Source: Lachnospiraceae bacterium (GTDB lineage Bacteria > Bacillota > Clostridia > Lachnospirales > Lachnospiraceae). Taken from it: 64,000 nt of DNA. The DNA is taken from NCBI GenBank assembly GCA_024696005.1, contig JAILHF010000007.1, forward strand, positions 1 through 64,000, given 5' to 3'. Shown here one piece after another: positions 1,331 through 30,277 of this stretch. Position 1 is the first letter of the stretch; each line of letters opens with the position of its first letter. A program made the position numbers and the translations under genes. A model generated the notes under the pieces. It saw only the letters and a program-made list of their open reading frames with translations, had not been told where the DNA came from and ran no database searches.

Positions 1331-2422
1331 TCAAACCAGCATCCTGCAGGTAGTGTGGACGATATTCAGCTTGTCCGCATTCTTCATGAAATACAGAGTC
1401 TCCAGGCTTTCCGCCATGTAGCCGATGTAACGGTCGGCGCGTTCGCTGCCCTTCGGCACCGACAGTTCTTCCGTACGCTCCAAAACCGGGAAAAGCCATT
1501 CGCAATATTGCCGCAACACTGTCTTCTTTGCAAGGATCACATTGTAATTGAACAGATACCGCTGCTCAAGGATTGCAGGAAAAGCGTCCGCATACTCCGG
1601 CTGCAGTTCCCGAAGTGCTGTAAGAAGGGCGTCCCAGTCCTCTTCTTTCAGATAGCGTTCATGATGAGCATGGATCGAGGGTTCATAGGGCAGAGGGTAG
1701 GGAAGTACCACATCCACATCATTGTCAGCAATCCGGAGAAGATCGTCCTCCGAAAGATCAAACATGCGCCGGTACTGTGCAAGACCATAATAGGTTCCCT
1801 CATCCGGATCAGAAGCTCCCGCAGAAAGCAGACGGTTTTTCCATGCCCAGTATAATCCGGTCATCTCGGAATAATTTACATTCCTGGGGGAGATGTTCTC
1901 TCCCGTATCATCCGTAAGCTCAGCAACCCGCTCATCGCAATTGGCCGCCCCCACCTGGATGGGGATCATATATTCCGGCAAGGATACAGCCGTCTTCAGC
2001 GGACGGTCCTTGTGGCAGCGTGCCATGTAAACCTGCAGCTCAGGTTTGCGGCATCCAACAGGCAGCGCCTGCAACGGCAGGAAGCGTCCCACCCTGCAAT
2101 GAAACAGTTTTATCAGTTCCGTCCAACGGTCCGTATCCATCCTGATGTAATTCCGGAATCCCGCCTGCTCCAATGATTCCGCGATCTCGTCCTGAACGTT
2201 CTCGGGCGTTGCGATCAGGATGCTCTTACTCTTCTTCTCCTCTGCAGACATTCCCTCTGCAAACGAAGCCAGTTCCTTCACCGGGATCCCTCCCAGTACA
2301 GGCGCATTGTTTCCCATCTGTGATACCAGAAAGCAGGGAATCTCTCTCCCGGGACATAATGTTTTGATCGCTTCGTACGCGCCCAGAGCATAGCCCTGGG
2401 CTCCGAAAATATACAGTTCCAT
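1331..2422 (-). CDS. DUF4422 glycosyltransferase-like protein with N-terminal Rossmann-like domain
   Basis: The C-terminal two thirds carry the DUF4422 signature: IQVGAA, then DDTGENISPRN, then ELTGLYWAWKN-like SEMTGLYWAWKN, and the YGLAQYRRMF motif. DUF4422 proteins are thought to be glycosyltransferases of cell-surface glycans. The first ~100 residues (LYIFGAQGYALGAY, then a GIPV motif) resemble a Rossmann module also seen in its neighbours. I chose the ATG at 2422 because a GGAG lies 8 nt upstream; an upstream in-frame ATG at 2464 lies inside an inverted repeat and lacks a ribosome site. It is the last gene of the glycan island on this side. The nuclease remnant separates it from the FkbM gene, so it probably has its own transcript. 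Confidence 0.8.
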   Translation of the reverse strand: MELYIFGAQGYALGAYEAIKTLCPGREIPCFLVSQMGNNAPVLGGIPVKELASFAEGMSAEEKKSKSILIATPENVQDEIAESLEQAGFRNYIRMDTDRWTELIKLFHCRVGRFLPLQALPVGCRKPELQVYMARCHKDRPLKTAVSLPEYMIPIQVGAANCDERVAELTDDTGENISPRNVNYSEMTGLYWAWKNRLLSAGASDPDEGTYYGLAQYRRMFDLSEDDLLRIADNDVDVVLPYPLPYEPSIHAHHERYLKEEDWDALLTALRELQPEYADAFPAILEQRYLFNYNVILAKKTVLRQYCEWLFPVLERTEELSVPKGSERADRYIGYMAESLETLYFMKNADKLNIVHTTCRMLV

Positions 2423-2443
2423 AGCCATTTCTCCAATAAAAAA

Positions 2444-2476
2444 CTGATGTAAAGTAAATCCCATGCTTTACATCAG
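2444..2476. repeat. 11-bp perfect inverted repeat
   Basis: CTGATGTAAAG (2444-2454) and its exact reverse complement CTTTACATCAG (2466-2476) flank an 11-nt spacer just upstream of the DUF4422 start. A third copy, CTGATGTAAAG, occurs at 3067-3077 beyond the nuclease remnant. The 2466 and 3067 copies face inward like terminal repeats. Confidence 0.75.
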
Positions 2477-2504
2477 TCGAAAAAGGTCTTAAGGCAGGAA
2501 TGAT

Positions 2505-2897: not shown

Positions 2898-3150
2898 TCA
2901 CTTTTCTTGCTGTGCAAGGCAGCAAAAAAGAGCATCCCGTATCAATCTTTGTTTTTACAGGAAAACACAGATATCGCGAATCGGTATCCTGAACATCTAT
3001 TTTGGCCTGCACCTTGAACGTTGCATGCCTTCTCAGAGTGAATCCTATGTTAGCATGAACCGATGGCTGATGTAAAGTATGAAATTATCAAGGTCGTATA
3101 GCTTTCAAATCTTAACGCCATAAAGCAGGCATCCACGCCCGCCGGTAAGA
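2898..3150. other. Intergenic stretch between nuclease remnant and FkbM gene
   Basis: I see no gene here. The only structure is the third CTGATGTAAAG copy at 3067-3077, which faces the copy at 2466-2476 across the remnant. No clear terminator for the long glycan operon is visible. Confidence 0.5.
3067..3077. repeat. Third copy of CTGATGTAAAG
   Basis: This copy is identical over 11 bp to the left arm at 2444-2454 and inverted relative to 2466-2476. Outside the core, positions also agree (AT.CTTTACATCAG.C when read on the other strand). Together with 2466-2476 it could be the terminal repeats of a ~610-bp element holding the nuclease remnant. Confidence 0.6.
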
Positions 3151-4209
3151 TCAAATCACCGCATATAATACAGTATCATATTGGAAATCCGCATAGTGAC
3201 GGATATAGAGCTTATACTCCGGTACAAGTTCATGAATATACATCGGAATATCAATCATATCTTCAGGCTTGTGATAAATGCAGATTGCCAATTTGGGCCG
3301 ATAACGCTTAATCGTTTCTTTTGCTCCTTCCAATGCCTTCAACTCCGCACCTTCGATATCAAGCTTAATAAATGTCACTTTATCCGTTATCGTTTCATCC
3401 AGTGGAACTGCTTCAATCACGCTATTCCCCGTATTTTCCCCCTCCGAAATCTTCGACTCCATCTCATCACCGGAGTCAAAACAAAGATTTTCTGTCTTAT
3501 CCCATAACCCCTTCATAAAGAGATCCACCGGAAGAGCGGGGTGTTTCTGCATTGTTTCCATAATTTTATCTTTATTCAGAGAATCCGCTTCAAAGGCATA
3601 TACTTTATTCACACGCGCCTTTTGACTGAGGATCACGCTGGTCATCAGATCATACGCGCCTCCGTCAACAAAGTATTCGCCTTCTTCTTCAAAATGAATG
3701 ATATCCTTATCAAAATACTGGTCTGCTATGCTGAGATTCGAAAGGTCCAACCCCAGCGTAAACACTCTCTCCTGTGGGAATGATCTCAGCAAGGCCTCCC
3801 GAATCTCGTTCCTGCACCTTACTGTACTAATGACGATCGACGCATCTTTATGATCTTTGACCAGCTGATCCGGCGAGATGATCAAATATCCGCCGGGCCC
3901 CTGTTTTCCCCAATTTTCCGGATTTCCGTCACAGATACAGAAGGGCTTTGTCTCCGCATATTCCCGGCAGGCTTCCAAAGCCGAGTAGCAATAATCCCCG
4001 GCCCCGTAAAGAATGATCTTTTCCGCCTTCCTGCAAAATGAAGCAAATTCCCTGTAATGAAGCGGATAACGATATTCCACCATATGATGAATATATCTTC
4101 TCTCCCCCGTCGCAAGATACAACAATCGGTTCTTAAACAGTTCTCTGGACTCATCATCTTCAAGCATTTGGTATACTCTTTTTGCTGCTTCGATCACTTC
4201 ACCCGTCAT
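3151..4209 (-). CDS. FkbM family SAM-dependent methyltransferase with Rossmann-like domain
   Basis: A 352-residue protein. Residues 64-155 form the recurrent Rossmann-like module (KIILYGAGDY, then CDGNPENWG and a late VISTV strand). From about residue 178 follows an FkbM methyltransferase domain: EYFVDGGAYDLMTS is the SAM-binding loop, VYAFEAD the acidic strand end, and VTFIKLDIEGAE the family hallmark, ending with the conserved AICIYHKPEDM. FkbM enzymes O-methylate sugars or small molecules; here a sugar of the surface glycan is the likely substrate. It is the last gene of the long operon, 3 nt after the preceding stop, with GGAGAATAGGAC before the ATG. The key residues look intact. Confidence 0.88.
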   Translation of the reverse strand: MTGEVIEAAKRVYQMLEDDESRELFKNRLLYLATGERRYIHHMVEYRYPLHYREFASFCRKAEKIILYGAGDYCYSALEACREYAETKPFCICDGNPENWGKQGPGGYLIISPDQLVKDHKDASIVISTVRCRNEIREALLRSFPQERVFTLGLDLSNLSIADQYFDKDIIHFEEEGEYFVDGGAYDLMTSVILSQKARVNKVYAFEADSLNKDKIMETMQKHPALPVDLFMKGLWDKTENLCFDSGDEMESKISEGENTGNSVIEAVPLDETITDKVTFIKLDIEGAELKALEGAKETIKRYRPKLAICIYHKPEDMIDIPMYIHELVPEYKLYIRHYADFQYDTVLYAVI

Positions 4210-4212
4210 GTC

Positions 4213-5430
4213 CTATTCTCCCATCTTTATCTGAAATTTTTCGTGATTCTTTTCATAATACTCAAACATCAGCTCTTTTTGTCCCGAAAAAGCAAAATGT
4301 CCGGCAAATACATTCTGAATCTCATAAGTTGCCATCCCGCTATCCGTATTCTCCCGAAAAATATAGGCTTCATCTTCCCCCATTCCGCTCGTCTCGGGAT
4401 TTTCAGGCCATCGCCCCATCATGATCCATCTTTTTCTCGAATAAAGGAAAGCTCCTATATTATAAAGACTACACAATGCTTTAGGAACAGCGTCCCTCTC
4501 CGAAAAGAATCGCACCATCCCATCCACTGAATCCACCGTGTCCCATAACCATACCGCCGCCTCCTGTAATCCATACGGTGCACTGAATGTACAACGATAA
4601 GCTCTTCCGAAGCACTTCTCAAACTCCTCCTTCTTTCCGATTGCATCCAGATAGGAAACGTAACTGTTATAATTTAGCGGCATGATTGGAACGACACACC
4701 CCACACGATATTCCCCACGCTTCTCCGCTTCATAATATCCTTCGCACAAACCGGAATAGAATCTCTTCCCAATAAACATGTCTTCGTCCAGTTTGATAAA
4801 AAGCTCCGCTTTGGGATGCTTTTCTACAACAACATTCTGCAAATAACAAACCTGGTTATGCTCGGAATAAAGATAGGACCACCCTTTCTTTTCACATAAT
4901 CCGTCAAGTTCATCGTCATATTTCCCGGACGAGATCATACAGTAATCAAATCCGGGTTCCATAAAATGAAACATACGAGCAAGCGTTGTATCCCAGAGTT
5001 CTTTCTGATAGCCGGCAAGCACATAAACGCATTTTGAACATCCTCTGCTCCGATCTATAAAAGTATATGGAAACGAGCAGTTATTTCCTTTATAAGAACT
5101 ATCCGGCGATGAAAGATCATATACTTTCCGGATCCCCATAGCATCCAATTGTTTCCATATGCTATCCGATGTGGCTACCGCCAACAAAACACATACCGCA
5201 TCCGGATCATATTCCTCGATCTTATCAGCCGGATATACAGGAAGCCCTTCATATTCCTTGATAAATGCCGACTTGAAATTGTCAATGATGCCCTCCGGTT
5301 TCAGCTCAGGAAGAAGAGAAGCTGTTTCAACGATCAGCTTCGATGTTTTCTTCCCTATCCCCCAGAAAAAAATATGACCTGTCAGTTTACCATCTGCATA
5401 TAATTGTTTTATTACCTGTGATTCTTTCAT
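4213..5430 (-). CDS. Glycosyltransferase (GT-A-like) with N-terminal Rossmann-like domain
   Basis: A 405-residue cytosolic protein. Residues 18-108 are the recurrent module (HIFFWGIGKKTSK, then IIDN and EGLPVYP). The rest looks like a nucleotide-sugar GT-A domain: a YVLAGYQKELWDTTLARM segment, then FIKLDEDMFIGKRFY with an acidic LDED (214-217) in the place of a metal-binding DxD, and a late GMGEDEAYIF acidic motif near the acceptor end. I do not recognise the exact family. The start ATG overlaps the stop of the upstream GT2 gene (ATGA), so translation is coupled. It probably adds one sugar to the glycan made by this operon. Confidence 0.7.
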   Translation of the reverse strand: MKESQVIKQLYADGKLTGHIFFWGIGKKTSKLIVETASLLPELKPEGIIDNFKSAFIKEYEGLPVYPADKIEEYDPDAVCVLLAVATSDSIWKQLDAMGIRKVYDLSSPDSSYKGNNCSFPYTFIDRSRGCSKCVYVLAGYQKELWDTTLARMFHFMEPGFDYCMISSGKYDDELDGLCEKKGWSYLYSEHNQVCYLQNVVVEKHPKAELFIKLDEDMFIGKRFYSGLCEGYYEAEKRGEYRVGCVVPIMPLNYNSYVSYLDAIGKKEEFEKCFGRAYRCTFSAPYGLQEAAVWLWDTVDSVDGMVRFFSERDAVPKALCSLYNIGAFLYSRKRWIMMGRWPENPETSGMGEDEAYIFRENTDSGMATYEIQNVFAGHFAFSGQKELMFEYYEKNHEKFQIKMGE

Positions 5431-6737
5431 GCTTCTCCTCGAGTCTGTTCCAGTGTATATTCGAAAAATATGATATCCTTCCGATAATCCTCTAATTGCA
5501 TCCGAATAGAATCAGCATACTTCTCATTCGCGATCAATATCCCGAAATCAGTGGAAAGCTCCTTCGTTTTCTCCGGTTCCCAAACAGGAATACCTTCCAT
5601 AGTTTCGCCCCATAATTCGCGATTGTTATCCATAAATGCGCTTGCATCATAACCTCTGGCGCGAATACTCTTCAAAGCTCCCTTTCCGTAATCTCCACAA
5701 CCAAAAATAATAATCTTCCCTGTTTTTTCGAGAAACTCAATAAAGCGCTTCTCGTTTGTTTTTCTGTATAAAACAAATGCTTCTACGGAGTTCATAAGTT
5801 GTCTGTATGGCTCCTGTAATGCACGCGGAAGATCCTCTCCCGAAACAAATCCATAGTTCTCCGCCTCTGAGAGATGTTCCTGAAACCACTTGCAGATACC
5901 GGCGGATTCTCCGTCTTCCAACTGTTCGTTTACAGTATCCATGCATGCCCGGACAAAGGATCGGGCCATCCTTCGATATAAAAGAACCTTAGCCGCATCT
6001 GTTGCACAATCCGTACTGCTCTCCAGTAGCAAGCCATATTCACTTCGTATAAAATGCAGTACCCGGTTCGAATTAGACGACGCCCCTTCGCGATCAACAC
6101 AGTATCGATAATAATCCCCTTTCAAGTATTTCCCTTTTAGGGCATGTGCTGCCACCTTGTGAAGAAATCCCACATCCTGAAACGCAGCTCCGGGGGTGGC
6201 AGAAGGCCGTATTCCATACTTGTTCAGAAAATCTCTTTTATAGATCCCATTCCATAAATACCAGTCATCTATAACTGTCTGCGGGTGCTCAGCCGGACAG
6301 AACACACTGTTGTAATACAACTGATCCGCGCTGACTTTTCGACTTATAAACTCTCTTTTTTCTCCAACCGTTCTATATGTGCTATAATCGCATTTCGCAA
6401 AATCAAGATCTTCTCTGATCGCGACCTCGTAAAGAGCCTTATACATATCCGCAGAAGTATAATCATCGGTATCCAGAATAGCAACATACTCACCAAGCGC
6501 TTGGTCTATGCCTATGCCGATCTGATACCCATAGCTTTTTATCGGACTTTTGATCACGCGAATCCTATTATCTTCTTTTGAAGCAATCTCAATGCTTTCC
6601 CATGTGCCATCAGTAGAACCCGCATCAATACAGAGTATCTCTATCTCTTTAAGGGTCTGAGATACAACACTGTTGATTGCCTCTTCTATATAGTCTCTTA
6701 CATTTAGAGACGGCATAATGATCGATACTTTTACCAT
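5427..6737 (-). CDS. Family 2 glycosyltransferase with C-terminal Rossmann-like domain
   Basis: The N-terminal ~230 residues are a GT2 domain: VSIIMPSLNVRDYIEEAINS, then ILCIDAGSTDGTW, and LDTDDYTSADMY as the DxD region. After a helical linker, residues 341-436 form the same Rossmann module as its neighbours (KIIIFGCGDYGKGALKSI, FMDNNRELWGE, EGIPVW). The order is reversed relative to several neighbours, where the module is N-terminal, so it appears to be mobile between enzymes. The gene begins 17 nt after the activase stop and overlaps the next gene by 4 nt. It likely transfers a sugar from a nucleotide donor at the inner membrane face. Confidence 0.88.
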   Translation of the reverse strand: MVKVSIIMPSLNVRDYIEEAINSVVSQTLKEIEILCIDAGSTDGTWESIEIASKEDNRIRVIKSPIKSYGYQIGIGIDQALGEYVAILDTDDYTSADMYKALYEVAIREDLDFAKCDYSTYRTVGEKREFISRKVSADQLYYNSVFCPAEHPQTVIDDWYLWNGIYKRDFLNKYGIRPSATPGAAFQDVGFLHKVAAHALKGKYLKGDYYRYCVDREGASSNSNRVLHFIRSEYGLLLESSTDCATDAAKVLLYRRMARSFVRACMDTVNEQLEDGESAGICKWFQEHLSEAENYGFVSGEDLPRALQEPYRQLMNSVEAFVLYRKTNEKRFIEFLEKTGKIIIFGCGDYGKGALKSIRARGYDASAFMDNNRELWGETMEGIPVWEPEKTKELSTDFGILIANEKYADSIRMQLEDYRKDIIFFEYTLEQTRGEA

Positions 6738-6754
6738 TCTTTCCTGTCCACCTG

Positions 6755-7525
6755 CTAAATCCGGGCAATCTTTGCTCTGATTCCCCGTTTTTCAAAACGC
6801 TCTTTGATCTGATCCAAAACGGTGTCAGTAACCTTTTCCCACACGGGCTCCTCTAAACCAAGACTCTTGTATTTTTCATTTCCCAGCATATGCGTCGCAA
6901 AGATCTCGACCGGAACATCTTTATATTCTTCCAGAAACTCCTCTATCAGACAAAGATTATCTTCTTTCAATGTATATTCATGATTCAACGGAATCCGAAA
7001 GATCATATCCTTTCCCTTTTCATGAAGGAATCTGACATTCGCCCTGTAACAATCTGCATCTCCTCCAATGATCATGTTACAGATATCCTTCTTAAGGATC
7101 TTCAAGTCTATCAGATAATGATCAATATCATCTGCTTGGTCTTTCCATGCCTGATACGGAATCTGTAGCGCCGTTTCCATCGCTATACTGATCCCACGCT
7201 GATGGAGTGTTGTAAGCACACTCCTCAAACGCTCTATCTGCAGGAGCGGTTCCCCGCCGGAAAAAGTCACGCCACCTTCCTCGCCAAAAAAATTGCGGTC
7301 TTTTAATATCTCCTCCAACAACTCCGAGTCCGAATACTCCCTTCCGTATGTTCCCCGCTTACCGTTCCTTTCATAATTCTGCGGTAAAACGGAAATATTC
7401 TCCGGATTAGCACACCATGGGCAGTGAAGATTACATCCTTTCAGGAACACTGTTGTACGGATCCCTGGCCCGTCATGAAAACACATCCTTTGAATATTCG
7501 TGATCAGGATACTGCCTTTACTCAT
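6755..7525 (-). CDS. Glycyl radical enzyme activase (radical SAM)
   Basis: A 256-residue radical SAM enzyme of the PFL-activase type. It has FLKGCNLHCPWCANPE with the cluster cysteines at C31, C35 and C38, the early FHDGPGIRTTVF segment typical of activases, and VTFSGGEPLL (GGEP at 90-93). It should use SAM and one 4Fe-4S cluster to abstract hydrogen from the glycine of its partner. There is no cysteine-rich insert after the first cluster, so it resembles the short single-cluster activases rather than those carrying extra ferredoxin-like clusters. The ATG directly follows the TAA of the glycyl radical enzyme gene, so the two are co-translated. Its place between that enzyme and a GT2 gene is unusual. 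Confidence 0.93.
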   Translation of the reverse strand: MSKGSILITNIQRMCFHDGPGIRTTVFLKGCNLHCPWCANPENISVLPQNYERNGKRGTYGREYSDSELLEEILKDRNFFGEEGGVTFSGGEPLLQIERLRSVLTTLHQRGISIAMETALQIPYQAWKDQADDIDHYLIDLKILKKDICNMIIGGDADCYRANVRFLHEKGKDMIFRIPLNHEYTLKEDNLCLIEEFLEEYKDVPVEIFATHMLGNEKYKSLGLEEPVWEKVTDTVLDQIKERFEKRGIRAKIARI

Positions 7526-9448
7526 TTAAGAAGCTTTCCTTTCATTCTCCAGCGCTCTCCGGATCAATACCTCCTGATACTCCTCCGGAAGATCCTTAAA
7601 GTACGCTGAAAAACCCCATACCCTGACAATAAGATTCGGGAATTTCTCCGGGTCCTTTCGTGCTTCAATCAACGTTTTGCTACTCACCACATTCATCTGC
7701 ATCTCAAAAAATCCTGCACGAATCGATCCTTTGATAAACTGTACCATCTTTTCCCGATTACTGATAATCTGATCCGGGCTCATCATCAGGTCGATCACAT
7801 TTCCGTTAAACTGGTTATTCTCATAGTGTAATCCGGCTGCATAATTCACTACTTCCGTAAAGGAATCATTATCTTCATTGGAAATATGTACCGTAAAAGG
7901 CTCTCCTTTCTTTCTTCCGTCAAAGGAGGCCGAAAAACCACGGGCCGAATCCATATAGGCTGCACCGCTGAGTCCGGTTTTAATCCTCTGTCCGCACATC
8001 TTTTTATACTCTGCGAGCTCAGCAGAAACATGATCCATAATCCTTTGGGTCAACGATATTACTTCCTCATCATCTGTCCCATAATGCCCCTTTTCTTCTC
8101 TCAACTCATCCAGGACATCCTCATTTCCTGCGAAATCCGACATAATCATCTTCTTTATGTCGTACAGCGAAAACCGGTGTTCTTCAAATACAAACTTCTT
8201 TATATTGAATAGAGCATCCAGAAGATTGCCCATAGCCACCGAGGTGATTCCGAGCTCTCCATACAATGCACCTCCCTGCGAAACATCCTTCTCACTTTCA
8301 AAACAGCCATAAGTGAAGACCGACAGCAGGATATCATTCTGAAACACATGATTTCTTAAAACCGTTTTTACAGCCCGGAGATTTCGACTAAGATAAACAA
8401 GATAAGTATCCACTAACGCATTAAAATCAGTTATTCTATCGAGCTTCTCCCGTTTGAACAGATTATCCAGGGCTCTCATATAATTCAAAGGAGTACGATT
8501 ATTATTGCTGGAGCTTTTTCCACCGATCAGCGGTTCCCAGCAGGCGGAAGTGGTATACTCGACCGCATCTTCAATCGGGATCCCAAATCCTGTCAGGCAG
8601 GGAAGGATCACATCATCATTTGCAAATAAAGGCGCGCCGATCCCCGTAGCGATCGAATCCAGCGACAGGCCGATCAGATCATCCGGCGTATTCTTATTGA
8701 TCCGAAGCAGACACTTCGGATCCGGCTGATGAACATTTTTCATCGCTTCAATAAAGAGGTAGGTCAGTTCGTTACAGACATACCCTCCATTCTCATCGCT
8801 CCTCCCCAATACGAAGATCTGGCCTGTATCCCCCATCAGAACGTTACTCTTATAACGATAGTTTTCATGAAGAACACGGAATAGATCCTCCAATACTTTC
8901 AGCGCTTCACATCTCGAAAGGATCCCGGTTTTCATATCCTTTTCGTAGTAAGGCCACAGAAAAGTATCCCACGCCCCCAGTCCGACAAGCCGATGATCCG
9001 TCTGCCAGAACATTTGATTGATAAAGAGCATCCTCTGTATCGCCTCGCAAAAGTGTTCTGCCGGCTTTTCGATCAAAGCCTCAAACCAGGAAACACGAAC
9101 ATCCGATCGGTCCCGTTGTCTTATCGTATCCGCAATCCTCTGCGCCAACCCGCCAAGCTCATCACATACGGTGTTATATCCCCTGCAGAACTCACTTGAG
9201 GGATCAGAATATTTAAGTTCCATTAAGCCATTATTCAGCACCTTATCATATGCCGGCGTCAGATTCTCGTAGCGGTATCCTCTGGTCGTATCCATAACAT
9301 AATCCGTATCGATAAAGTAAAAGAATCTTTTGTTCTCACTATCGCTGATACGGATCTTCCTGCATATCAGGGAAAACACTTCCGTATACGGTCTCATCAG
9401 ACCATTTTCCATAAAGTCTTCCGATGTATTACGAAGTCCAGCTATCAT
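7526..9448 (-). CDS. Glycyl radical enzyme (PFL-like family), substrate unknown
   Basis: A 640-residue protein, shorter than most family members (about 760-850), mainly at the N-terminus. The C-terminal radical loop NLIVRVWGFSAYF has the glycine at 612. The thiyl site is TTSACWEPLIGG with C303 and E305; the usual motif is CVE, so a tryptophan replaces valine. The start has AAGGAGAGAATAGG before the ATG. Its activase follows directly. Known family reactions include C-C, C-N and C-O bond cleavage and dehydration, all in anaerobes; no known subfamily is recognised. The genes around it are nearly all glycan enzymes, so a sugar, nucleotide sugar or polyol substrate, or energy metabolism unrelated to glycans, are both possible. 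Confidence 0.93.
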   Translation of the reverse strand: MIAGLRNTSEDFMENGLMRPYTEVFSLICRKIRISDSENKRFFYFIDTDYVMDTTRGYRYENLTPAYDKVLNNGLMELKYSDPSSEFCRGYNTVCDELGGLAQRIADTIRQRDRSDVRVSWFEALIEKPAEHFCEAIQRMLFINQMFWQTDHRLVGLGAWDTFLWPYYEKDMKTGILSRCEALKVLEDLFRVLHENYRYKSNVLMGDTGQIFVLGRSDENGGYVCNELTYLFIEAMKNVHQPDPKCLLRINKNTPDDLIGLSLDSIATGIGAPLFANDDVILPCLTGFGIPIEDAVEYTTSACWEPLIGGKSSSNNNRTPLNYMRALDNLFKREKLDRITDFNALVDTYLVYLSRNLRAVKTVLRNHVFQNDILLSVFTYGCFESEKDVSQGGALYGELGITSVAMGNLLDALFNIKKFVFEEHRFSLYDIKKMIMSDFAGNEDVLDELREEKGHYGTDDEEVISLTQRIMDHVSAELAEYKKMCGQRIKTGLSGAAYMDSARGFSASFDGRKKGEPFTVHISNEDNDSFTEVVNYAAGLHYENNQFNGNVIDLMMSPDQIISNREKMVQFIKGSIRAGFFEMQMNVVSSKTLIEARKDPEKFPNLIVRVWGFSAYFKDLPEEYQEVLIRRALENERKAS

Positions 9449-9460
9449 CCTATTCTCTCC

Positions 9461-9859
9461 TTAAAGCTCGTATGCAGCGTCTTTTAACGATAAAGTACAA
9501 ATCGTCGGATCGTGTTCCGCCAGAAATCCGGTTACCGCCTCATAGTCATAGATTGGTGAAATGATAACAATATCCACCGAAGGCAATTCAAACACACGCC
9601 TCATCAAGCGAACCGGCTTTCCATCCAGCTCTGCTATACCCTCTGCATTCTTATCAACAAACCAACATACTTCAACACCTGAATTCTTGATCTCATCATA
9701 CAGGATCCGTCCGATCTCACCCGCATCAAAGATTCCCACACGAAGGTAGCCGCACTCCTTCAGATAATCCGCAAAGGAACGATCTCTGTTTTTAGCTTCC
9801 AGCCACCTTTTCAGCGTAAGGATGGTATCCTTATCCGTATTCCGATTTCCAAACTCCAT
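9461..9859 (-). CDS. Small stand-alone Rossmann-like protein
   Basis: A ~132-residue protein consisting almost only of the module found fused in its neighbours: LRVGIFDAGEIGRILYDEI, then VCWFVDKNAEG, a GKPV turn and DIVIISPIYDYEAV. I placed the start at 9859 because GGGGAGATAACGG precedes that ATG; an upstream frame to 9898 would overlap the previous gene. It lies 12 nt before the glycyl radical enzyme gene and 4 nt after a DUF4422 gene. In larger proteins such modules resemble the PglD-type N-terminal or CoA/nucleotide-binding Rossmann fold. As a free protein it could act as an adaptor or bind a nucleotide sugar; function is unknown. Confidence 0.75.
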   Translation of the reverse strand: MEFGNRNTDKDTILTLKRWLEAKNRDRSFADYLKECGYLRVGIFDAGEIGRILYDEIKNSGVEVCWFVDKNAEGIAELDGKPVRLMRRVFELPSVDIVIISPIYDYEAVTGFLAEHDPTICTLSLKDAAYEL

Positions 9860-9863
9860 TCCG

Positions 9864-11132
9864 TTATCTCCCCGTGAAAACAATATCTGTATATGCAAAC
9901 TTCAAAACATCTTTATACTTCATGATATATAGGTTTTCCAGTATCTCCGTCAGATATCCCATATAGCGTCTTCGCTCTTCTATCTCGCGTTTATGAAACC
10001 ACTTTCTGATTTCAAAGCATACCGGAAACATGAAGGAACAATAATCATCAAAAATCTCTTTTTTTGCGAAAATGATGTTACAGGGGATGTATAAACAATT
10101 ATCTCTGTACTCACGAAGAAGCTCGGCATATCCGTCCTTTCGTTCTTTCAGGACTTCCTCAAGCGCCATCCATTCCGTTTCAGTACTGTACTTCAGATAG
10201 TAATCTCCAAACGCCACCCCCGTATACTGAGGAAGCGCACATACAAGGTCGATATCGGATAAACGGATATCATCAAGCATCTCATCATCGATCTTCTGCT
10301 TTCTCCGATAATGGTTCACTCCTACAAAACCACGATCTTTAACATTTTTCCATATCCAGTAGTGGGCTGTACACTCACTATAAAACATATTCTCCGAAGA
10401 AATGTTCTCGCCTTCCGCATCCGTAATATCACAGATCCGCTCCCGCGCCTGAGCGGCCCCGACCTGTATCTCCGAATAACCTTCCGGAAGCATGTTCCCG
10501 GCATATGACTTGTCAGAATACCCCGTCGCAATAAAGATCTCGGCGTTCTTATTACTATTTATCCCCGGTTGGGAAGAACCCGGAATATACTTCATATCCC
10601 CATACTGGCTTCGGATACGGTCTGCTAGAGAACGATCCCTTATCGCTTTGTCCGGATCAGTCGTGATATGTACTCTCGTTAGCGGAACATTGGTATGCAA
10701 ATCCCGAAGCAAAACATAATCCTGCTCCATACCGGGAAAACTCGTGTCAATCCGGGTTTGGAGATCGTGACCTGCTCCACCGTCCTCCCAGAATTCAACA
10801 AAAATCTTCTGAAGCAAATTCCCCGTACACAGATATACGCAAGAGAAAAATCCCCTTTTCTCAAGGTCTTCCGCCACATCATCGCCCTTGTTAAGTGCAA
10901 CGATAATCTTTTCTCCTTCACAGTCTTTTTGCGCCTCTTCAAGGGACAGCAGAGGTACATCCTGATACAGCTTTTCGTTCCCCTTCTTTTCCGTCACAAT
11001 AACAGCAGGCACATGGATCTCATTTTGAAAACAATACTTCAAAAGAAGACTTCCATAAGCCCCTGCCCCGAAAATACAGATTCCTTTCCGAGAAGCTTCA
11101 TGAAACTGCTCCGGCTCTTCTACTCTGTTCAA
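9864..11132 (-). CDS. DUF4422 glycosyltransferase-like protein with Rossmann-like domain
   Basis: A 422-residue protein. Residues 15-110 are the Rossmann module (GICIFGAGAYGSLLLKYC, then IIVALN). The C-terminal half has the DUF4422 signature: IQVGAAQARERICD, EGENISSEN, ECTAHYWIWKN and FVGVNHYRR. The middle has an additional ~110-residue stretch before DUF4422 that I do not recognise. The start is a TTG at 11132 inside the 3' end of the preceding GT4 gene (35-bp overlap); GGAGG sits 6 nt upstream and there is no better ATG, which decides the start. It is probably a surface-glycan glycosyltransferase, by family association only. Confidence 0.8.
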   Translation of the reverse strand: MNRVEEPEQFHEASRKGICIFGAGAYGSLLLKYCFQNEIHVPAVIVTEKKGNEKLYQDVPLLSLEEAQKDCEGEKIIVALNKGDDVAEDLEKRGFFSCVYLCTGNLLQKIFVEFWEDGGAGHDLQTRIDTSFPGMEQDYVLLRDLHTNVPLTRVHITTDPDKAIRDRSLADRIRSQYGDMKYIPGSSQPGINSNKNAEIFIATGYSDKSYAGNMLPEGYSEIQVGAAQARERICDITDAEGENISSENMFYSECTAHYWIWKNVKDRGFVGVNHYRRKQKIDDEMLDDIRLSDIDLVCALPQYTGVAFGDYYLKYSTETEWMALEEVLKERKDGYAELLREYRDNCLYIPCNIIFAKKEIFDDYCSFMFPVCFEIRKWFHKREIEERRRYMGYLTEILENLYIMKYKDVLKFAYTDIVFTGR

Positions 11133-12537
11133 TCATCCCCTCCAGATCATCAACATACTTGTCGAAGCGACACTCCGTAGCCACCCTTTCACAGCAACGA
11201 GCAGACAATTCTCTGCGCCTTTTCTCATCATTCCCCAGGCGAATGATCTCGGATCCTATCGCAGATATGTCTCCAATCGGTTTGATCAGCTCCGGATCGA
11301 TGTTTTCAAGGACATCCCTTGTACCACTCACATCTGTCACCACAGGGACAGCTCCTCCCGCCATCGCTTCCAACATCGCCAGACTGCCACCTTCAAACTC
11401 CGACAGATTGATATAGATATCCTGCCGCTTCCAAAAATCCTTCATTTCATCGGTCGGAATATGACCGTGAAGAATAATGTGATCCTGTTTTCCATTATCA
11501 CTTACCCATTGAGACAATATCTCACGATAAGCACCTTCCCCTGCCAGCTCCATACGATACCGCAAGCCTGCCGCATCCAATTGTCCGATCAATGCCGGGA
11601 GAAGATCCGCCCGCTTCTGATCGATCTCCATTCGTGCTCCCCAGCCAATTCGAAGTGGTTCATCCTTTTTTCTATTATTTTCGCACTTTCCCTCGGCTTT
11701 GTCGATAAAGTTTATATGATAGCAAAGCTTTTCCTGCGGCACTCCATAATCTTCATGCAGGACCCCACAGATCTTTTTACTGACACAAAGGATACTGTCC
11801 ATTTCATCATAGAAACATCGTATCCGCCGATACATAAACCTCGCATCAAAATGAACGATCGAGATAATATGCACCAGATCCGGGTATTGTTTCTTCAGTA
11901 TCAATGCCGCCGCCAAAACTCGATCTGACCAGTTGTTGATCAGTATGAACGGAAGCTGATCCTTCAAGAAATCAACGATCTTCTCTATTGGTGACCAGTA
12001 ATCCTCCGATTCCATCGTCTTATAGTCCAGGCGTCTGATCAAATGCTCCCACTTATCCTGTTTAAGCTGGCTATCCGATCCGATCACCATAACCTGCTGT
12101 CCACGACGGTCCAGCTCTTCCGCCACACGATAGGACCACAACTCCATACCGCCGTATCCGACGCCATCATAAGCATCCAGGATAATACTATTCTTTGCTC
12201 CGAAATGATACTTTCTCATATTCAAAGAATCATCACGCAAAGCTATATAGTATCGCAGCAGCCTCGAATAATCATAGATCCTGTCCCGTTTGATCCCCAG
12301 TCCGAGAAGCTCTTCCTCTATCTCGCTTTCCGCATTGCAGGAGATCAGGATATCAACATCTTTCGTCACAAGCTCAGCCGGCGAAACAACAACAATCCCT
12401 CCGATGGACTGTCCCCACTTTGCCTGATCATTATCGCAAAAGATGGCTACAGTCTCTCCGAACTTTTCTATCAAGGATCTATAAAAAGGCATCATCCGTC
12501 CGGTGCCAAACAGGCACCAGGACTTGCTCATTTTCAT
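11098..12537 (-). CDS. Family 4 glycosyltransferase with N-terminal Rossmann-like domain
   Basis: A 479-residue protein. Residues 5-85 are the module (WCLFGTGRMMPF, IFCDNDQAKWGQ, IGGIVVVSP). From ~110 follows a GT-B domain: a donor-side loop with LDAYDGVGYGGMELW, LRIGWGARMEIDQKR, HIILHGHI, and the family EX7E motif in EFEGGSLAMLEAMAGG. It should transfer a sugar with retention of configuration from a nucleotide donor. Two ATGs (12537, 12531) are possible; a GGGGTTAGGAT element lies upstream. It heads the tightly packed stretch that runs to the FkbM gene, and its 3' end overlaps the DUF4422 gene. Confidence 0.9.
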   Translation of the reverse strand: MKMSKSWCLFGTGRMMPFYRSLIEKFGETVAIFCDNDQAKWGQSIGGIVVVSPAELVTKDVDILISCNAESEIEEELLGLGIKRDRIYDYSRLLRYYIALRDDSLNMRKYHFGAKNSIILDAYDGVGYGGMELWSYRVAEELDRRGQQVMVIGSDSQLKQDKWEHLIRRLDYKTMESEDYWSPIEKIVDFLKDQLPFILINNWSDRVLAAALILKKQYPDLVHIISIVHFDARFMYRRIRCFYDEMDSILCVSKKICGVLHEDYGVPQEKLCYHINFIDKAEGKCENNRKKDEPLRIGWGARMEIDQKRADLLPALIGQLDAAGLRYRMELAGEGAYREILSQWVSDNGKQDHIILHGHIPTDEMKDFWKRQDIYINLSEFEGGSLAMLEAMAGGAVPVVTDVSGTRDVLENIDPELIKPIGDISAIGSEIIRLGNDEKRRRELSARCCERVATECRFDKYVDDLEGMIEQSRRAGAVS

Positions 12538-12558
12538 TTTATATCCTAACCCCCTTAC

Positions 12559-12668
12559 TTATTCAGGTCTTGCATATATGGCCGCTAATACTTTTCCCAA
12601 AAAGCTCAGACGCGACCCTTTCAATTTTTCCCAAAGCACCAGTCGTTCCCGGCCATTCTCAGCTCCTA
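12559..12668 (-). pseudogene. Possible out-of-frame C-terminal tail of the DUF616-like gene
   Basis: Just past the DUF616-like stop, another frame reads about 35 codons of protein-like sequence (GRERLVLWEKLKGSRL, then LGKVLAAIYARPE) ending in TAA at 12559. Its basic, amphipathic look resembles tails of glycosyltransferases. It could be a tail lost by a frameshift near 12665 or a gene remnant. No homopolymer run lies at the junction, so the case is weak. Confidence 0.3.
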
Positions 12669-13762
12669 TGCGGATGGATCCTGAAATCATCATATTCTCT
12701 GTTATCATATCCGAGAATATCAAGATCATCCATATCATACCCATTCTTCCACAATACATACATGAACGAAAACTGATCTCTTAAGGCTCCCCGATTGAAT
12801 TCCTCCCACCATTGTTCCATGATCTTCATACAGGTCGGATCATTATGCCTTCTACCGATCACATTCATCTCGCCCAAGCCATAATGAAGAGGCATTCCCT
12901 CATCGAGATACCTTTTCATCTGCTCATAGACTTCTTTCCAAAAGACTCTTTTCAGATCAACTATCTGCAAAGCCTCATAAAAAATACAATCCCTTCCATG
13001 ATGCTGAAAAACTGAAATCCCGCTTTCCGCGTCCGGAATATATGATCTTATATCCCTTAGTATCTCAATATTGGAATCAATATAAATGGAATGATCATAT
13101 TGCGGAAATATCTTATGAGGATGCATCTTAAAATATCGATTTCGAAGGATAGGAGAGGAAATGCTATCCGAAAGCAAATCCTTTGCATTGATCCATACAA
13201 ATCCCCCCGAAGACTCCGGTTTTTTATCCGATATAATGTAATAATCCAGCTGAGGATCAATAAACGCCGGCTGATACAGATCATCATAATCGCCAAAAAG
13301 GGCCGTATAGACCGCAATCTTTCCATATTCACCCAATTTACGATTCAATGCTCTTTTTAGACTGTATTTCTTTTTACTCAGTTTCGAAAAAATATCCAGT
13401 CTTTCGCTTTCATACAAAAACTGAAATGCTTTTTGCAATCCCTCTCTGTCTTCTTGAAGTTGATCATCCAGATAATCGGCAAGCTCAACAATACAAGTAA
13501 AACCGTCTTCCCGTATTCTTTTGATCAGTACTTCCTTGTTTTTCTCCGATATACCAGGGATAACACAACAGCTCGTTTTAGCCGTGATATCTTCCGGAAG
13601 ACAGCAGGTAACATCGTCAAATACCATCTTAAAACGTTTCTCCGGATCATTATCAACAAAGCACTCTATCGAGATATCAAAGCATTTTAAAAGACCGGCG
13701 ATCAAAATACCGCCCTTTCCCGCCCCATATATGACCAACTTTTTATCATTAAAGGAAAGCAT
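12659..13762 (-). CDS. DUF616 (TOD1/MUCI70-like) glycosyltransferase with Rossmann-like domain
   Basis: A ~367-residue protein. The first ~100 residues are the recurrent module (KLVIYGAGKGGILIAGLL, FVDNDPEKRF). From about residue 150 a GT-A-like domain starts with IAVYTALFGDYDDLYQP, followed by DYYIISD, then RYFKMHPHKIFPQYDHSIYI and a DSN acidic motif; this is the DUF616 pattern. I chose ATG 13762 because GAGGG lies 8 nt before it; a GTG at 13777 is in frame but sits on that ribosome site. The C-terminus may be truncated, as coding-like sequence continues in another frame. It probably adds a sugar to the island's glycan. Confidence 0.8.
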   Translation of the reverse strand: MLSFNDKKLVIYGAGKGGILIAGLLKCFDISIECFVDNDPEKRFKMVFDDVTCCLPEDITAKTSCCVIPGISEKNKEVLIKRIREDGFTCIVELADYLDDQLQEDREGLQKAFQFLYESERLDIFSKLSKKKYSLKRALNRKLGEYGKIAVYTALFGDYDDLYQPAFIDPQLDYYIISDKKPESSGGFVWINAKDLLSDSISSPILRNRYFKMHPHKIFPQYDHSIYIDSNIEILRDIRSYIPDAESGISVFQHHGRDCIFYEALQIVDLKRVFWKEVYEQMKRYLDEGMPLHYGLGEMNVIGRRHNDPTCMKIMEQWWEEFNRGALRDQFSFMYVLWKNGYDMDDLDILGYDNREYDDFRIHPHRS

Positions 13763-13841
13763 ACTTATTTCCCTCACATAGAATTATCATCTTGCCAGCC
13801 ATTCCTCTCATCCGTCTCATTTTGCCGTATCCCATTGAGTG

Positions 13842-14957
13842 CTAAAGCAAGTATTTAATCGGGGCCATAATACTATTCAATTCCTTCGCCATCTTCCTGA
13901 AATATATATTATATAAATGCTCGCCAAAATAGGCCGGCCCCCTCTGCGTCCACCAGACTCCGCCAAGCTTATCATCCGTATATCTAAGAACCGAAAACAT
14001 CCAATCATAAAAGGCTTTATAAATCTCTTTTTTCCCGACCAGAAGATTCCCGATCAGAAAAAATCTATCACATAGATAGGAATCCGCCGCCTCCAGGAAC
14101 TCCGGACTAACTCCCCGGATTCCATCCATAAGAAGATTAACGATCCCATTATTATAGGAAGCAATATTCCATCGCCAATAAACCGGGATCGGTAAGACAA
14201 CGTCTATTCCCTGCCTGTATATCTGCTCTAGATCACTATCCTCTACTTCAAATCCTCTTCCATAATGATAAAGTCCGATATAATCACTGTTTATATTCTT
14301 TGCTCCCCAGTAACCTACCGTAAGCTCACAATATCTATTATTTTGAGAGGAAATATTATCTCCGGTGTCATCACCTGTTTCACAGATCCTTTTATCAGCT
14401 ATCGCCGCACCACCCTGAACATATTCGACATATTTGTTTTCATGGCGGGATATCGCTTTATGATAATCCGATTGAGATGTGCAGGCCAGAATCCTTATTT
14501 TATATTCATAGGAATCGTCCGGTTCGTTCTTACCCTGTATATTATCCCATAAAACAGAGCAACCATACAGATCCAAGGCCTCATTAAGACGTTCCTTTTC
14601 TATAATGGTTAGGATCTGACACACCCCAGGAAAAAAGTTTCTAAATCCATGCCTTTGCAGCATCTCTTCCGTTTCAGCCGTTTTATCCCAGGCTCTTCCG
14701 ATAATAACAGCTACAGACTCCCTATCACCCAAATATTCATCTAATGCAAATACATTCAAGCCACAAAATGTTTTAGGATAGGGGATCTGCCCGCTCACAA
14801 GAAAAGCTTTCACGCAAAAGCCATAATAACAGGCTATAGAATATTCTTTTTCATAGCAGCCGAAAATCAGCAGCTCCTTAAAACCCTTAAGGCTTTCAAA
14901 ATAGTCAGATTTTGTAAAAGGATTATCATTTCCTAATGCGTTATTACTCTTCATCAT
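13842..14957 (-). CDS. DUF4422 glycosyltransferase-like protein with degenerate Rossmann-like domain
   Basis: A ~371-residue protein. The N-terminal part (ELLIFGCYEKEYSIACYYGF, then VIIGRAWD) matches the module fold but lacks the GxG loop, so ligand binding may be lost. The C-terminal half is DUF4422: YVQGGAAIADKRICE, DTGDNISSQNNRY, ELTVGYWGAKN and YIGLYHYGR. Compared with other copies, the usual double arginine after HY is changed to GR. The start is uncertain; an ATG ATG pair at 14957/14954 has a GGGAAG element upstream and I prefer it over an ATG at 14990. It lies between a GT4 gene and a DUF616 gene. Confidence 0.75.
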   Translation of the reverse strand: MMKSNNALGNDNPFTKSDYFESLKGFKELLIFGCYEKEYSIACYYGFCVKAFLVSGQIPYPKTFCGLNVFALDEYLGDRESVAVIIGRAWDKTAETEEMLQRHGFRNFFPGVCQILTIIEKERLNEALDLYGCSVLWDNIQGKNEPDDSYEYKIRILACTSQSDYHKAISRHENKYVEYVQGGAAIADKRICETGDDTGDNISSQNNRYCELTVGYWGAKNINSDYIGLYHYGRGFEVEDSDLEQIYRQGIDVVLPIPVYWRWNIASYNNGIVNLLMDGIRGVSPEFLEAADSYLCDRFFLIGNLLVGKKEIYKAFYDWMFSVLRYTDDKLGGVWWTQRGPAYFGEHLYNIYFRKMAKELNSIMAPIKYLL

Positions 14958-14996
14958 TCGCTTCCCGTTCGAACACATATGGTAAGCCACCGATAT

Positions 14997-16187
14997 TTAC
15001 CCATCATTTCCCATAATAAGTCTGACCAACGCTGTCAGATCATCTCTTTGTCTTTGCTGTATTCCAGGCATCAACTCTCTGATCCTTTTTCTCTTCTTTT
15101 CCCTCTCTGTTTCTGAGAATGTCTGTAGAATACGAATTGCCATCTCATCAACATCAAGCGGGTTGAAATACCACACCATATCTCTGCAAACTTCCGATAC
15201 TGAAGTATTCACTGAGCACATGCAAAGAGTTTCATATTTCATAGCTTCTAAGGGGGGATAACCAAAGCCTTCATTTAGTGTCGGATACACAAACAAATGT
15301 GCTTTTTGATATAGGCTTTCCAACTCATCGGCCGCCAGATAATCTGAAAAAACAAATCTATCCCTATTATGAACACCTGATAAAATATTGTTTTCCTCTT
15401 GTCTATCCCCAATCAAAAGAAATTTGTATTCTTTAGGTATAAACTTATACTTTCCGGAAAAAACCATATCAAATGCCATAACAGCGCGCTTGGGATTTTT
15501 ATACCATATATTCGCACTGGTCATAAGCGCAAACTTGTCGGGTTCGATTTTCAGTTTTTCAAAAACAGATCTATCTACTTCTAATCCTTTTTCTATTCTC
15601 TTCTCCGGTGGATAGAATACCATTATATTGTCACTTTCTATTTCAGGGAAATAGTGCAAAATGGAATTCCTTGAGTGTTCCGAATCCGTAACGATTCTGA
15701 TGTCACTAAAACTTTTTAGCGCCTGTTCATAGCATCTTTTGGTCTCTTCTAATCCACTTCTTTGGGATGACGGCAAAACAGCATTATGCCCCCTTTCAAA
15801 GAAAACACGGTCACAATCCTCATAAAAGCCGAGCTCCATGGTTCTAAGCCCATGAAATGTTCCAATAAAGCGAACATTATTTACTCCCTTAAACCAATAC
15901 CAATTATTTCCATATGGAAGAGGGGAATAAATTATCGTATAACCATGCTCCCGAACTATTGCTGGCAGCTCTCTCATCATATCCATCGGATGGATGTTCC
16001 AACCAGCACCTTTTACTCTATCCAAAATATCACTATCTAATCCGTATTTTTCTCTATAGAACAGCCCACATCCATTTGATGCTCCACTTTCCAACAAGGA
16101 AAATAATACTGCATTACCATATTCTCCACCGCCATGAAAACGACTCCCCCCTTGATAATACGTTCCGTCAAACAATATTTTTCCCAT
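14997..16187 (-). CDS. Family 4 glycosyltransferase
   Basis: A 396-residue GT-B protein without the Rossmann module. The N-terminal half has FDGTYYQGG and FHGGGEYGNAVLF (acceptor side). The C-terminal half has a donor-site pattern: LMTSANIWYKNPKRAVMAF, FKFLLIGDRQE-like YKFLLIGDRQE, RFVFSDYLAADELESLYQKA, and the EX7E motif in NEGFGYPPLEAMKYE. It resembles mannosyl- or other hexosyltransferases of O-antigen-like glycans. The ATG at 16187 has GGAG 5 nt upstream; a GTG one codon earlier is too close to that site. It sits between a GT2 gene and a DUF4422 gene in the same direction. Confidence 0.9.
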   Translation of the reverse strand: MGKILFDGTYYQGGSRFHGGGEYGNAVLFSLLESGASNGCGLFYREKYGLDSDILDRVKGAGWNIHPMDMMRELPAIVREHGYTIIYSPLPYGNNWYWFKGVNNVRFIGTFHGLRTMELGFYEDCDRVFFERGHNAVLPSSQRSGLEETKRCYEQALKSFSDIRIVTDSEHSRNSILHYFPEIESDNIMVFYPPEKRIEKGLEVDRSVFEKLKIEPDKFALMTSANIWYKNPKRAVMAFDMVFSGKYKFIPKEYKFLLIGDRQEENNILSGVHNRDRFVFSDYLAADELESLYQKAHLFVYPTLNEGFGYPPLEAMKYETLCMCSVNTSVSEVCRDMVWYFNPLDVDEMAIRILQTFSETEREKKRKRIRELMPGIQQRQRDDLTALVRLIMGNDG

Positions 16188-16229
16188 CACAACTCCTCTC
16201 GCACTATCAAGTACCTGTAGATCGTCCCC

Positions 16230-17483
16230 TTAATCATCAAGACGATATAATTCCAAATCGATGATTTCGTGATCCCTATCCTCCAGTATCCTCATAATCT
16301 CATTTTTATATCGTTCCGACACGGCCGGTATGATCAGTGCATCTTCGGGAATACTCAGGCCTTCATATTCCAGTACCCTGTATCCACAAAGCTTTTCGGA
16401 ATCAGCTTTAGTCACCAAAATATTCTCAAGCCGCAGACCATATCTGTTAAGAAGACGAATATAGCGTTTCGCATATACTCCCGCGCCGTAGAGATAAACC
16501 TTTTTTTTCTCAAGAAATTCACAGATATCGTCCGGAAGAACATATGGGATTCCATCCAGGAGAAGGCGGACAAACATTTCCTTCAAGCTGTATGACGTAA
16601 TACTCCGATAATAGGAAAGCTTCTCCGGGTAGTCACACTGCTCAAATCTCTCCCTCCAGCGTTCGATCTCCATGGCACTTTCCTTTGCTATCATGCTGTC
16701 AATCTGACCATCGCATAAATCTGAACTTTTGACAACATCTAAAAGATATACCACGTTTTTATGGGCACTGATCGTTTTGTATTTTCTTCTTCCCGAGTGA
16801 ACCTGACTGTTATCCCTTAACCGATAGCAGTGAAGTTCCTCATTCAAGATTCCCATACGATCCGCCTTCAGATGCACATGGAAGGTAAATGAAATATCCT
16901 CCGAACAGGAATCCTCGATAAAACGGATCCCTGTCCTTTTCAGAAATTCCGCCGAATACATATACAGCCATACCGGCGATCTGTACTCGCCGTTTTCAAA
17001 CAAACGGATATAGCCTTCAGCCCCCGTCATCACTTCCGGATAATCCGCACGTTTATGTCCATCAAAGGGCTTCTCCCTTTTATACTCTACCAGCTCATCG
17101 ATAGTCTGCGTTTCAAAGCAAAGCATATCAAGCCCATCCTTTTCCATCCTGTCCAAGATAAGCGCAAATGCATCCGGCCTCTTAAGATAATCATCCCCAT
17201 CCAGGAAATAGATATACCTGCCTTGGGCCATCTGCATACACTCGTTCCTACTCGCTTGATAACCCATATTCTTTTCATGGTAAAGTACTTTAATGCGATC
17301 ATCCCTGGCGGCATAATCGGCAAGTATCTTGGCCGTGTTATCCTGTGAGACATCCTCCGTACATAGAATCTCCAAATCCCTGACCGTCTGCATAATAATG
17401 GATTCCAGACACTGCCCTATATATTTCTCGACATTGTATGCCGGGATAATAACAGAAATCTTAACACTTGGTTCTGCTTTCAT
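16230..17483 (-). CDS. Family 2 glycosyltransferase with C-terminal Rossmann-like domain
   Basis: A 417-residue protein. The GT2 domain begins at VKISVIIPAYNVEKYIGQCL and has CTEDVSQDNT and YFLDGDDYLKRPD as the acidic metal site. A second half with QVHSGRRKYKT is typical of GT2 enzymes of capsule clusters. Residues 328-417 form the recurrent module (KVYLYGAGVYAKRYIRLL, ILVTKADSEKLCGYRVLEYE, ALIIPAVSE). It is a probable sugar transferase at the cytoplasmic membrane face. The ribosome site is weak (GGAAAAGA). A ~190-nt gap separates it from the methyltransferase gene upstream, so a new transcript could begin there, although I found no clear promoter. Confidence 0.9.
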   Translation of the reverse strand: MKAEPSVKISVIIPAYNVEKYIGQCLESIIMQTVRDLEILCTEDVSQDNTAKILADYAARDDRIKVLYHEKNMGYQASRNECMQMAQGRYIYFLDGDDYLKRPDAFALILDRMEKDGLDMLCFETQTIDELVEYKREKPFDGHKRADYPEVMTGAEGYIRLFENGEYRSPVWLYMYSAEFLKRTGIRFIEDSCSEDISFTFHVHLKADRMGILNEELHCYRLRDNSQVHSGRRKYKTISAHKNVVYLLDVVKSSDLCDGQIDSMIAKESAMEIERWRERFEQCDYPEKLSYYRSITSYSLKEMFVRLLLDGIPYVLPDDICEFLEKKKVYLYGAGVYAKRYIRLLNRYGLRLENILVTKADSEKLCGYRVLEYEGLSIPEDALIIPAVSERYKNEIMRILEDRDHEIIDLELYRLDD

Positions 17484-26518: not shown

Positions 26519-30223
<3,705 letters not shown>

Positions 30224-30277
30224 TTTCAGGATCTCCTTCCTTCTCTTGTAAACAGTCTTTGGTTGCCGTCTTGCTTC

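Follow-up and report, generated by a model that had tools for sequence, protein, structure and literature searches.

The 64,000-nucleotide stretch of DNA analysed here (hereafter the window; positions 1 to 64,000 of contig JAILHF010000007.1, assembly GCA_024696005.1, from a Lachnospiraceae bacterium) encodes a glycyl radical enzyme (GRE; 7526-9448, minus strand) within a cluster of glycosyltransferase genes. We propose, with a probability of about 60%, that it is a radical glycan-tailoring enzyme that modifies the growing chain at the place where the glycosyltransferases extend it. What is new here is that the GRE is equipped like the neighbouring transferases, with accessory modules that enzyme and transferases have in common. 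This, together with its family membership, intact radical motifs, predicted fold and gene linkage, is documented below.

The gene encodes a complete protein of 640 amino acids (aa) with the motifs TSACWEP, containing C303, W304 and E305, and RVWGFSAYF, containing G612; by homology, C303 would form the thiyl radical, E305 would serve as the base and G612 would carry the glycyl radical. Pfam, a PDB sequence search and structure prediction concur in the superfamily assignment: PF02901 matches with E 1.7e-59 over profile positions 204-637 of 647 and PF01228 is above its cut-off too, the PDB sequence search has 8id0 as its best match, and the first 50 Foldseek matches listed for the AlphaFold2 (AF2) model (pLDDT 87.6) are GREs throughout (TMq 0.73-0.80, with 5i2g on top at 0.79). 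None of the NCBIfam cut-offs was reached (244.7 of 678.2 bits with the subfamily model TIGR01774 and 188.6 of 1109 with the best equivalog), and the curated GRE subfamilies CutC, HypD, HpsG/HpfG, indoleacetate and hydroxyphenylacetate decarboxylases and pyruvate formate-lyase were all unmatched. The protein is shorter than 18 GREs from outside both the family and the sister clade described below, which measure 756-859 aa, and the alignment places the shortening at the N-terminus and in the stretch preceding a 'GHxxPDY'-type motif. The adjacent activase of 256 aa scores 203.9 bits against the cut-off of 174.35 bits of the general GRE-activase model TIGR02494, and the 50 residues between its CxxxCxxC and GGE motifs hold no Cys, so that the ferredoxin-like insert is missing. 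The first-pass annotation of this DNA, which had described a GRE of unusually small size with C303, E305 and G612 and a single-cluster activase, is thus borne out. Elsewhere in the genome, a single further protein matches PF02901 (716 bits, contig C18).

Relatives were collected by a pattern scan of a genome collection of 84,980 species, which yielded 27 loci (26 at 37-64% identity, and L029 at 23%, which is excluded from the family count), and by searches of 150, 392 and 391 genomes from the bacterial family, order and class, respectively. Only 8 of the 392 and 3 of the 391 genomes were positive at E 1e-80, the own genome counted in each, and the gene is therefore rare; when a profile was run across the phylum with a stringent threshold of E 1e-150, the own genome alone was recovered among 348. 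Plasmids gave 90 records, all below 60% identity (10 listed at 24.7-27.6%), phages gave 9 records at 22.6-27.3%, and the 7 stretches of viral contigs that fit the pattern included no relative. The 24 full-length relatives aligned have a mean column identity of 55%, with ACWEP and RVWGFS in every one. In a quick IQ-TREE run, made with SH-aLRT support, without bootstraps and without pyruvate formate-lyase, the family forms one clade of 30 rows (support 100) beside a sister clade of 10 rows (100), and the two are jointly separated from 18 other GREs, including YbiW and PflD, with support 99. This supports a distinct subfamily. Broken or cut GRE genes (L011, L021, L024, L027, L028 and L032) were left out of the alignment and tree and kept in the neighbourhood counts (L032 as L072), and the GREs L044 and L052-L056 were omitted from the tree. 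The activases of L071, L077 and L098 retain four to five Cys in the insert, and the single-cluster form looks as if it had arisen by loss within the family.

The genomic neighbourhoods were compared, with genes counted on all six frames, for three sets of loci: 36 of the family (the window among them, many truncated at contig ends), 11 of the sister clade and 20 of control GREs in genomes of the same bacterial family. Every family locus has a surface-glycan gene (a glycosyltransferase or the flippase Wzx in 33, UDP-galactopyranose mutase (GLF) in L024 and L028, WbsX in L071) versus one of the 20 control loci, as expected if homologues always sit in glycan clusters. At least one glycosyltransferase is present in 32 of the 36, Wzx in 18, GLF in 14 and WbsX in five; at least two glycosyltransferases occur in 29 of 36 family loci versus 0 of 20 controls (Fisher p 1.1e-9). 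The activase was seen in 34 family loci (not in L019 and L020). Among controls, 19 of 20 have the activase, one (L109) has a glycosyltransferase, and Wzx, GLF and WbsX are absent; among sister loci, GRE and activase are present in 11 of 11, a glycosyltransferase in one (L097), and Wzx, GLF and WbsX in none. The GT2, GT4 and Wzx families are general ones, and samples were checked with Pfam. No family locus examined belongs to another pathway, and neither NCBIfam nor the tree matches the family to a characterised subfamily. Apart from the GRE and its activase, no gene cluster exceeds 15 of the loci that entered a BLAST clustering of the neighbours, and a constant downstream enzyme is therefore not apparent. 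UDP-Galf was considered as a general substrate and rejected, as GLF occurs in 14 of 36 loci only. A transferase-like family with a KLDED motif, here called GTx, lies near the GRE in the window (4213-5430) and in L004, L005, L009, L012, L015, L019, L020, L026, L027 and L074; the members scanned passed no Pfam cut-off.

The accessory modules, whose counts rest on picked open reading frames (ORFs) and not on the six-frame recount, differ between the two branches of the family. Ten proteins of the window carry a Rossmann-like domain, and their genes all lie within 1331-17483. Across the window's branch of 12 loci, it is present on 38 of 49 transferase-class proteins, on 3 of 3 FkbM proteins and on none of 12 activases (L071 holds none of those transferase classes), and when the window, the seed of the profile, is left out, on 30 of 40 transferases and 2 of 2 FkbM proteins; the 24 loci outside this branch have it on 0 of 43 transferases. 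The GRE of this branch is itself without the domain, and a stand-alone gene for it lies directly upstream in 12 of 12 loci (found by tblastn in L004, and preceding a broken GRE in L011). The domain of the WbsX transferase is likewise a separate gene in L004 and L006, and it is fused in L008 and the end-cut L010. GREs of the other, Wzx branch have an N-terminal extension, and over the first 45 residues the median charge of 19 such proteins is +10 (the medians are +2 for 28 other GREs and -1 for 11 from the window's branch); the N-terminus is the most basic stretch in 16 of the 19 (exceptions L033, L023 and L063). GTx shifts in parallel, with the Rossmann-like domain on 5 of 5 members in the window's branch and a basic N-terminus (+8 to +12) on 7 of 7 in the other. 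The basic N-terminus is missing from the activase (median +2), GLF (+2.5) and the GT2 classes (-2.5 to +1) of Wzx-branch loci. Most simply read, these parallels mean that the GRE is recruited to the site of the transferases, and we propose the stand-alone Rossmann-like protein as its partner or targeting subunit.

C303, E305 and G612 are invariant in the 30 family rows (as C303-W-E305 and RVWG612). The Trp noted earlier in place of the common Val of CVE therefore holds throughout the family, but it is not private to it, as CWE is found in 10 of 10 sister rows. K245, A302, W304, N317 and W611 occur in 40 of 40 family and sister rows versus 0, 0, 1, 3 and 0 of the 18 other GREs; N62 is present in 39 of the 40 (29 of 30 in the family), and its column in the 18 others holds His in 11 and Asn in one. 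H152, H194 and K200 are invariant in the family and H521 is present in 29 of 30; elsewhere, H152 occurs in one of 10 sister rows, and H194 in one and K200 in two of the 18 other GREs. In glycerol dehydratase, H164, H281 and D447 assist hydroxyl departure. D447 of 1r8w lies at C433+14, where the family has N317 in 30 of 30 rows; we take the H164 position to be that of N62, and H152 adjoins the H281 column, in a shorter loop. Judged from the alignment, an eliminase's opening half-reaction, with its Cys radical and Glu base, appears to be kept and the leaving-group machinery altered, and the chemistry could be elimination with other acids or isomerisation, neither of which we prefer.

From this we infer an activity, a substrate, a place of action and a reaction type. 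The radical S-adenosylmethionine (SAM) activase would place the radical on G612, and C303, turned into a thiyl radical, would abstract hydrogen from one of the carbons in a sugar or polyol unit. E305 would take the hydroxyl proton at the attacked carbon, and the resulting ketyl radical could shed a neighbouring substituent by dehydration or another elimination, leaving a deoxy or keto unit, or could have its hydrogen returned differently, which would amount to isomerisation. In Wzx-type clusters the GRE may act at the membrane on a lipid-linked unit, held by its basic N-terminal anchor. In the flippase-less type of the window its target may be a soluble chain, perhaps attached to a protein, and the Rossmann-like partner would bring the GRE there; no flippase gene was found near the operon, and the two PF01943 matches of the genome sit on other contigs. 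Wzx and a basic N-terminus occur together in L098, the earliest branch of the family, so lipid-linked work may be the older state.

Several points weigh against a role on the growing chain. The contrast between basic tail and Rossmann-like domain is a single split in the tree, essentially one evolutionary event, and loci inside a branch share kinship. Basic N-termini are also found on 2 of 10 GT4 proteins, 1 of 8 GT2a proteins and the sole FkbM protein of the Wzx loci. The profiles for the transferases and the Rossmann-like domain were started from sequences of the family loci themselves, and 234 of the 465 ORFs picked in the 36 loci fall outside every class used. N62 and N317 would replace the hydroxyl-loss residues, which speaks against a plain diol dehydratase. 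Lastly, GLF in 14 of the 36 loci and the CDP-polyol, phosphonate and LicD genes in a few would suit a role on a soluble precursor too.

In that role, the GRE would convert a nucleotide sugar, a sugar phosphate or a CDP-polyol and so provide the transferases with an uncommon building block; we judge it rather unlikely, though a serious alternative. Besides GLF, a CDP-ribitol-type fusion of IspD with a short-chain dehydrogenase/reductase in L071, a phosphoenolpyruvate mutase/CTP transferase with LicD in L074 and LicD in L075 would fit it, the sister clade adjoins sugar kinases and aldolases, and the sugar-handling GREs already known use sugar phosphates. On the other hand, no gene for a precursor comes close to occurring in all 36 loci, and GLF, a precursor enzyme, is without the basic N-terminus common to the GRE and GTx. 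Chemistry on nucleotide sugars is conceivable, but the accessory modules favour the growing glycan as the target. The GRE fold could also have been retained for a non-catalytic role, e.g., to switch glycan assembly in response to oxygen or redox state, since a protein destroyed by oxygen could gate the pathway and the Rossmann-like partner weakly resembles the NAD(H) sensor Rex (E 0.0074), but the invariant radical residues and the activase in 34 of 36 loci make this improbable. An ordinary catabolic GRE (a diol or anhydrohexitol-phosphate dehydratase) that sits in a glycan cluster by chance would explain the identical predicted fold, with PflD among the nearest solved structures, but it is most improbable given a glycan linkage that holds over 36 loci and is absent from all but one of 20 control loci, scores far under all NCBIfam equivalog cut-offs, the clade-distinguishing N62, W304, N317 and W611, and Pfam-scanned neighbours that, with many neighbours unscanned, are mostly glycan genes (an ArsP-like protein in L018 is an exception).

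GREs with a known task mostly ferment or degrade small molecules. If the tailoring role is true, thiyl-radical chemistry extends to glycan biosynthesis, and deoxy or rearranged sugars are predicted on gut bacteria, whose surfaces would be oxygen-sensitive; the modules shared with the transferases would be a direct clue to the site of action. We see about an even chance that this is the first GRE class dedicated to making glycans, which would remodel sugars already attached to a lipid or protein carrier; the structure of the surface glycans of obligate anaerobes would then depend on the absence of oxygen. No GRE assigned to glycan assembly was found in the literature searched, where most subscription papers fell outside coverage.

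The genes of the cluster are listed in the table below. The DUF4422 and Rossmann-like genes are 4 bases apart, the Rossmann-like gene and the GRE 12, the GRE and activase 0, and the activase and GT2 gene 17, while this GT2 gene and the next overlap by 4 bases; the tight linkage to GT2, DUF4422 and Rossmann-like genes had been read correctly at the outset. The AF2 model of the stand-alone Rossmann-like protein (pLDDT 92.7) gave nothing below 0.001 in Foldseek, and Pfam gave no match at 1e-3 for the window copy. Matches to Rossmann and Rex families were weak, none below E 0.001, the value noted above for Rex being that of the stand-alone profile. On the Rossmann-like domain, PglD_N passes its cut-off on the GT2 protein at 5427-6737, whereas the separately encoded domain of L006 falls short of it (E 0.015).

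Table. Genes of the glycyl radical enzyme cluster in the window.
Feature	Positions	Strand	Evidence
DUF4422 protein, N-terminal Rossmann-like domain 5-103	1331..2464	-	PF14393
FkbM-type methyltransferase, Rossmann-like domain 51-154	3151..4209	-	PF05050
GTx, transferase-like, N-terminal Rossmann-like domain 17-114	4213..5430	-	no Pfam match; homologues in 10 other family loci
GT2 glycosyltransferase, C-terminal Rossmann-like domain 326-431	5427..6737	-	PF00535; PglD_N 25.1 of 23.4 bits on 341-402
Single-cluster radical-SAM GRE activase	6755..7525	-	TIGR02494, PF04055
GRE of the glycan-cluster clade	7526..9448	-	PF02901, PF01228; alignment of 24 relatives; AF2 model; tree
Stand-alone Rossmann-like protein	9461..9859	-	same domain fused to nearby transferases; upstream of GRE in 12/12; AF2 model
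DUF4422 protein, N-terminal Rossmann-like domain 5-95	9864..11132	-	PF14393
GT4 glycosyltransferase, N-terminal Rossmann-like domain 4-88	11098..12537	-	PF00534
TOD1/MUCI70-like glycosyltransferase, Rossmann-like domain 9-106	12659..13777	-	PF04765
DUF4422-class protein, Rossmann-like domain 22-116	13842..14990	-	clusters with DUF4422 proteins in BLAST
GT4 glycosyltransferase, no Rossmann-like domain found	14997..16190	-	PF00534
GT2 glycosyltransferase, C-terminal Rossmann-like domain 313-412	16230..17483	-	clusters with GT2 5427-6737 in BLAST
Methyltransferase, probably same operon, no domain by profile	17676..18674	-	PF13489

Just upstream of the GRE operon, a secreted-looking protein of 377 aa without Pfam match (19894-21027, minus strand) is a possible glycan acceptor; no homologue of it was found in the loci compared at that stage. 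A second transferase array (35699-61403) with GT2-like, DUF4422, DUF1919, LicD and GT11 genes extends to flagellin and FliD genes and looks like a flagellin glycosylation island. The Rossmann-like domain profile found nothing on its ORFs (transferases at 35.7-57.7 kb). Beside a LicD protein, this array encodes a radical-SAM protein (PF04055; 48740-49903, minus strand), a second sign of radical chemistry among the glycan genes of this genome. The ORF of 1921 aa at 27044-32809 on the plus strand is an antisense artefact over two minus-strand frames of 1320 and 1252 aa, which, recognised by eye, we take to be RNA polymerase beta and beta-prime.

Among known GREs, pyruvate formate-lyase is marked by an adjacent Cys-Cys pair, which is absent from the window GRE with its A-C-W-E. 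Choline trimethylamine-lyase CutC has the fold and C-x-E in common with it, but the CutC model scores 179.1 bits against a cut-off of 1050; D216 of CutC presumably corresponds to the N62 column. The glycerol and 1,2-propanediol dehydratases (1r8w, 5i2g) have the same fold and C-x-E, whereas the clade has N317 for D447, N62 at the presumed place of H164 and a shorter N-terminal part, and the hallmark of these dehydratases, Asp at Cys+14 with His at the H164 position, was not found in the family.

Closer in the tree is the sister clade (L067-L070 and L091-L097; AACWE, RVWGWSGYF), seen in 11 genomes among 299 from the bacterial family, which has K245, A302, W304, N317, W611 and N62 in 10 of 10 rows and lengths of at most 697 aa in 9 of 10; four members scanned reached no NCBIfam cut-off. 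It differs in having Tyr at K200 and Asn at H194 in 10 of 10 rows, Asn at H152 in 7 of 10, and a Cys-rich insert in 3 of 3 activases checked. Its neighbours are mostly genes of sugar catabolism or uptake: among 18 proteins picked by eye from nine loci and scanned, sugar-catabolic enzymes (FGGY or PfkB kinases, DeoC, class II aldolase, fucose isomerase, aldose epimerase, SMP-30-type proteins) occur in seven loci, and transporter components only in L067 and L093.

The view that known GREs spare sugars, from which the first-pass annotation had started, is outdated: YbiW and PflD cleave 1,5-anhydroglucitol 6-phosphate and 1,5-anhydromannitol 6-phosphate in a catabolic role (PMC12441222), and the PDB titles of 8id7 and 8id0 agree on the anhydrohexitol-phosphate activity. 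In the tree, the 30 family rows are separate from both enzymes, which retain His where the clade has N62, have G-C-V/I-E and R-V-A-G in place of A-C-W-E and R-V-W-G, and measure 765 and 810 aa. YbiW and PflD (8id7, 8id0 and 8yjo) nevertheless resemble the window GRE in fold, C-x-E, glycyl motif and adjacent activase gene, and their substrate is a sugar-derived ring.

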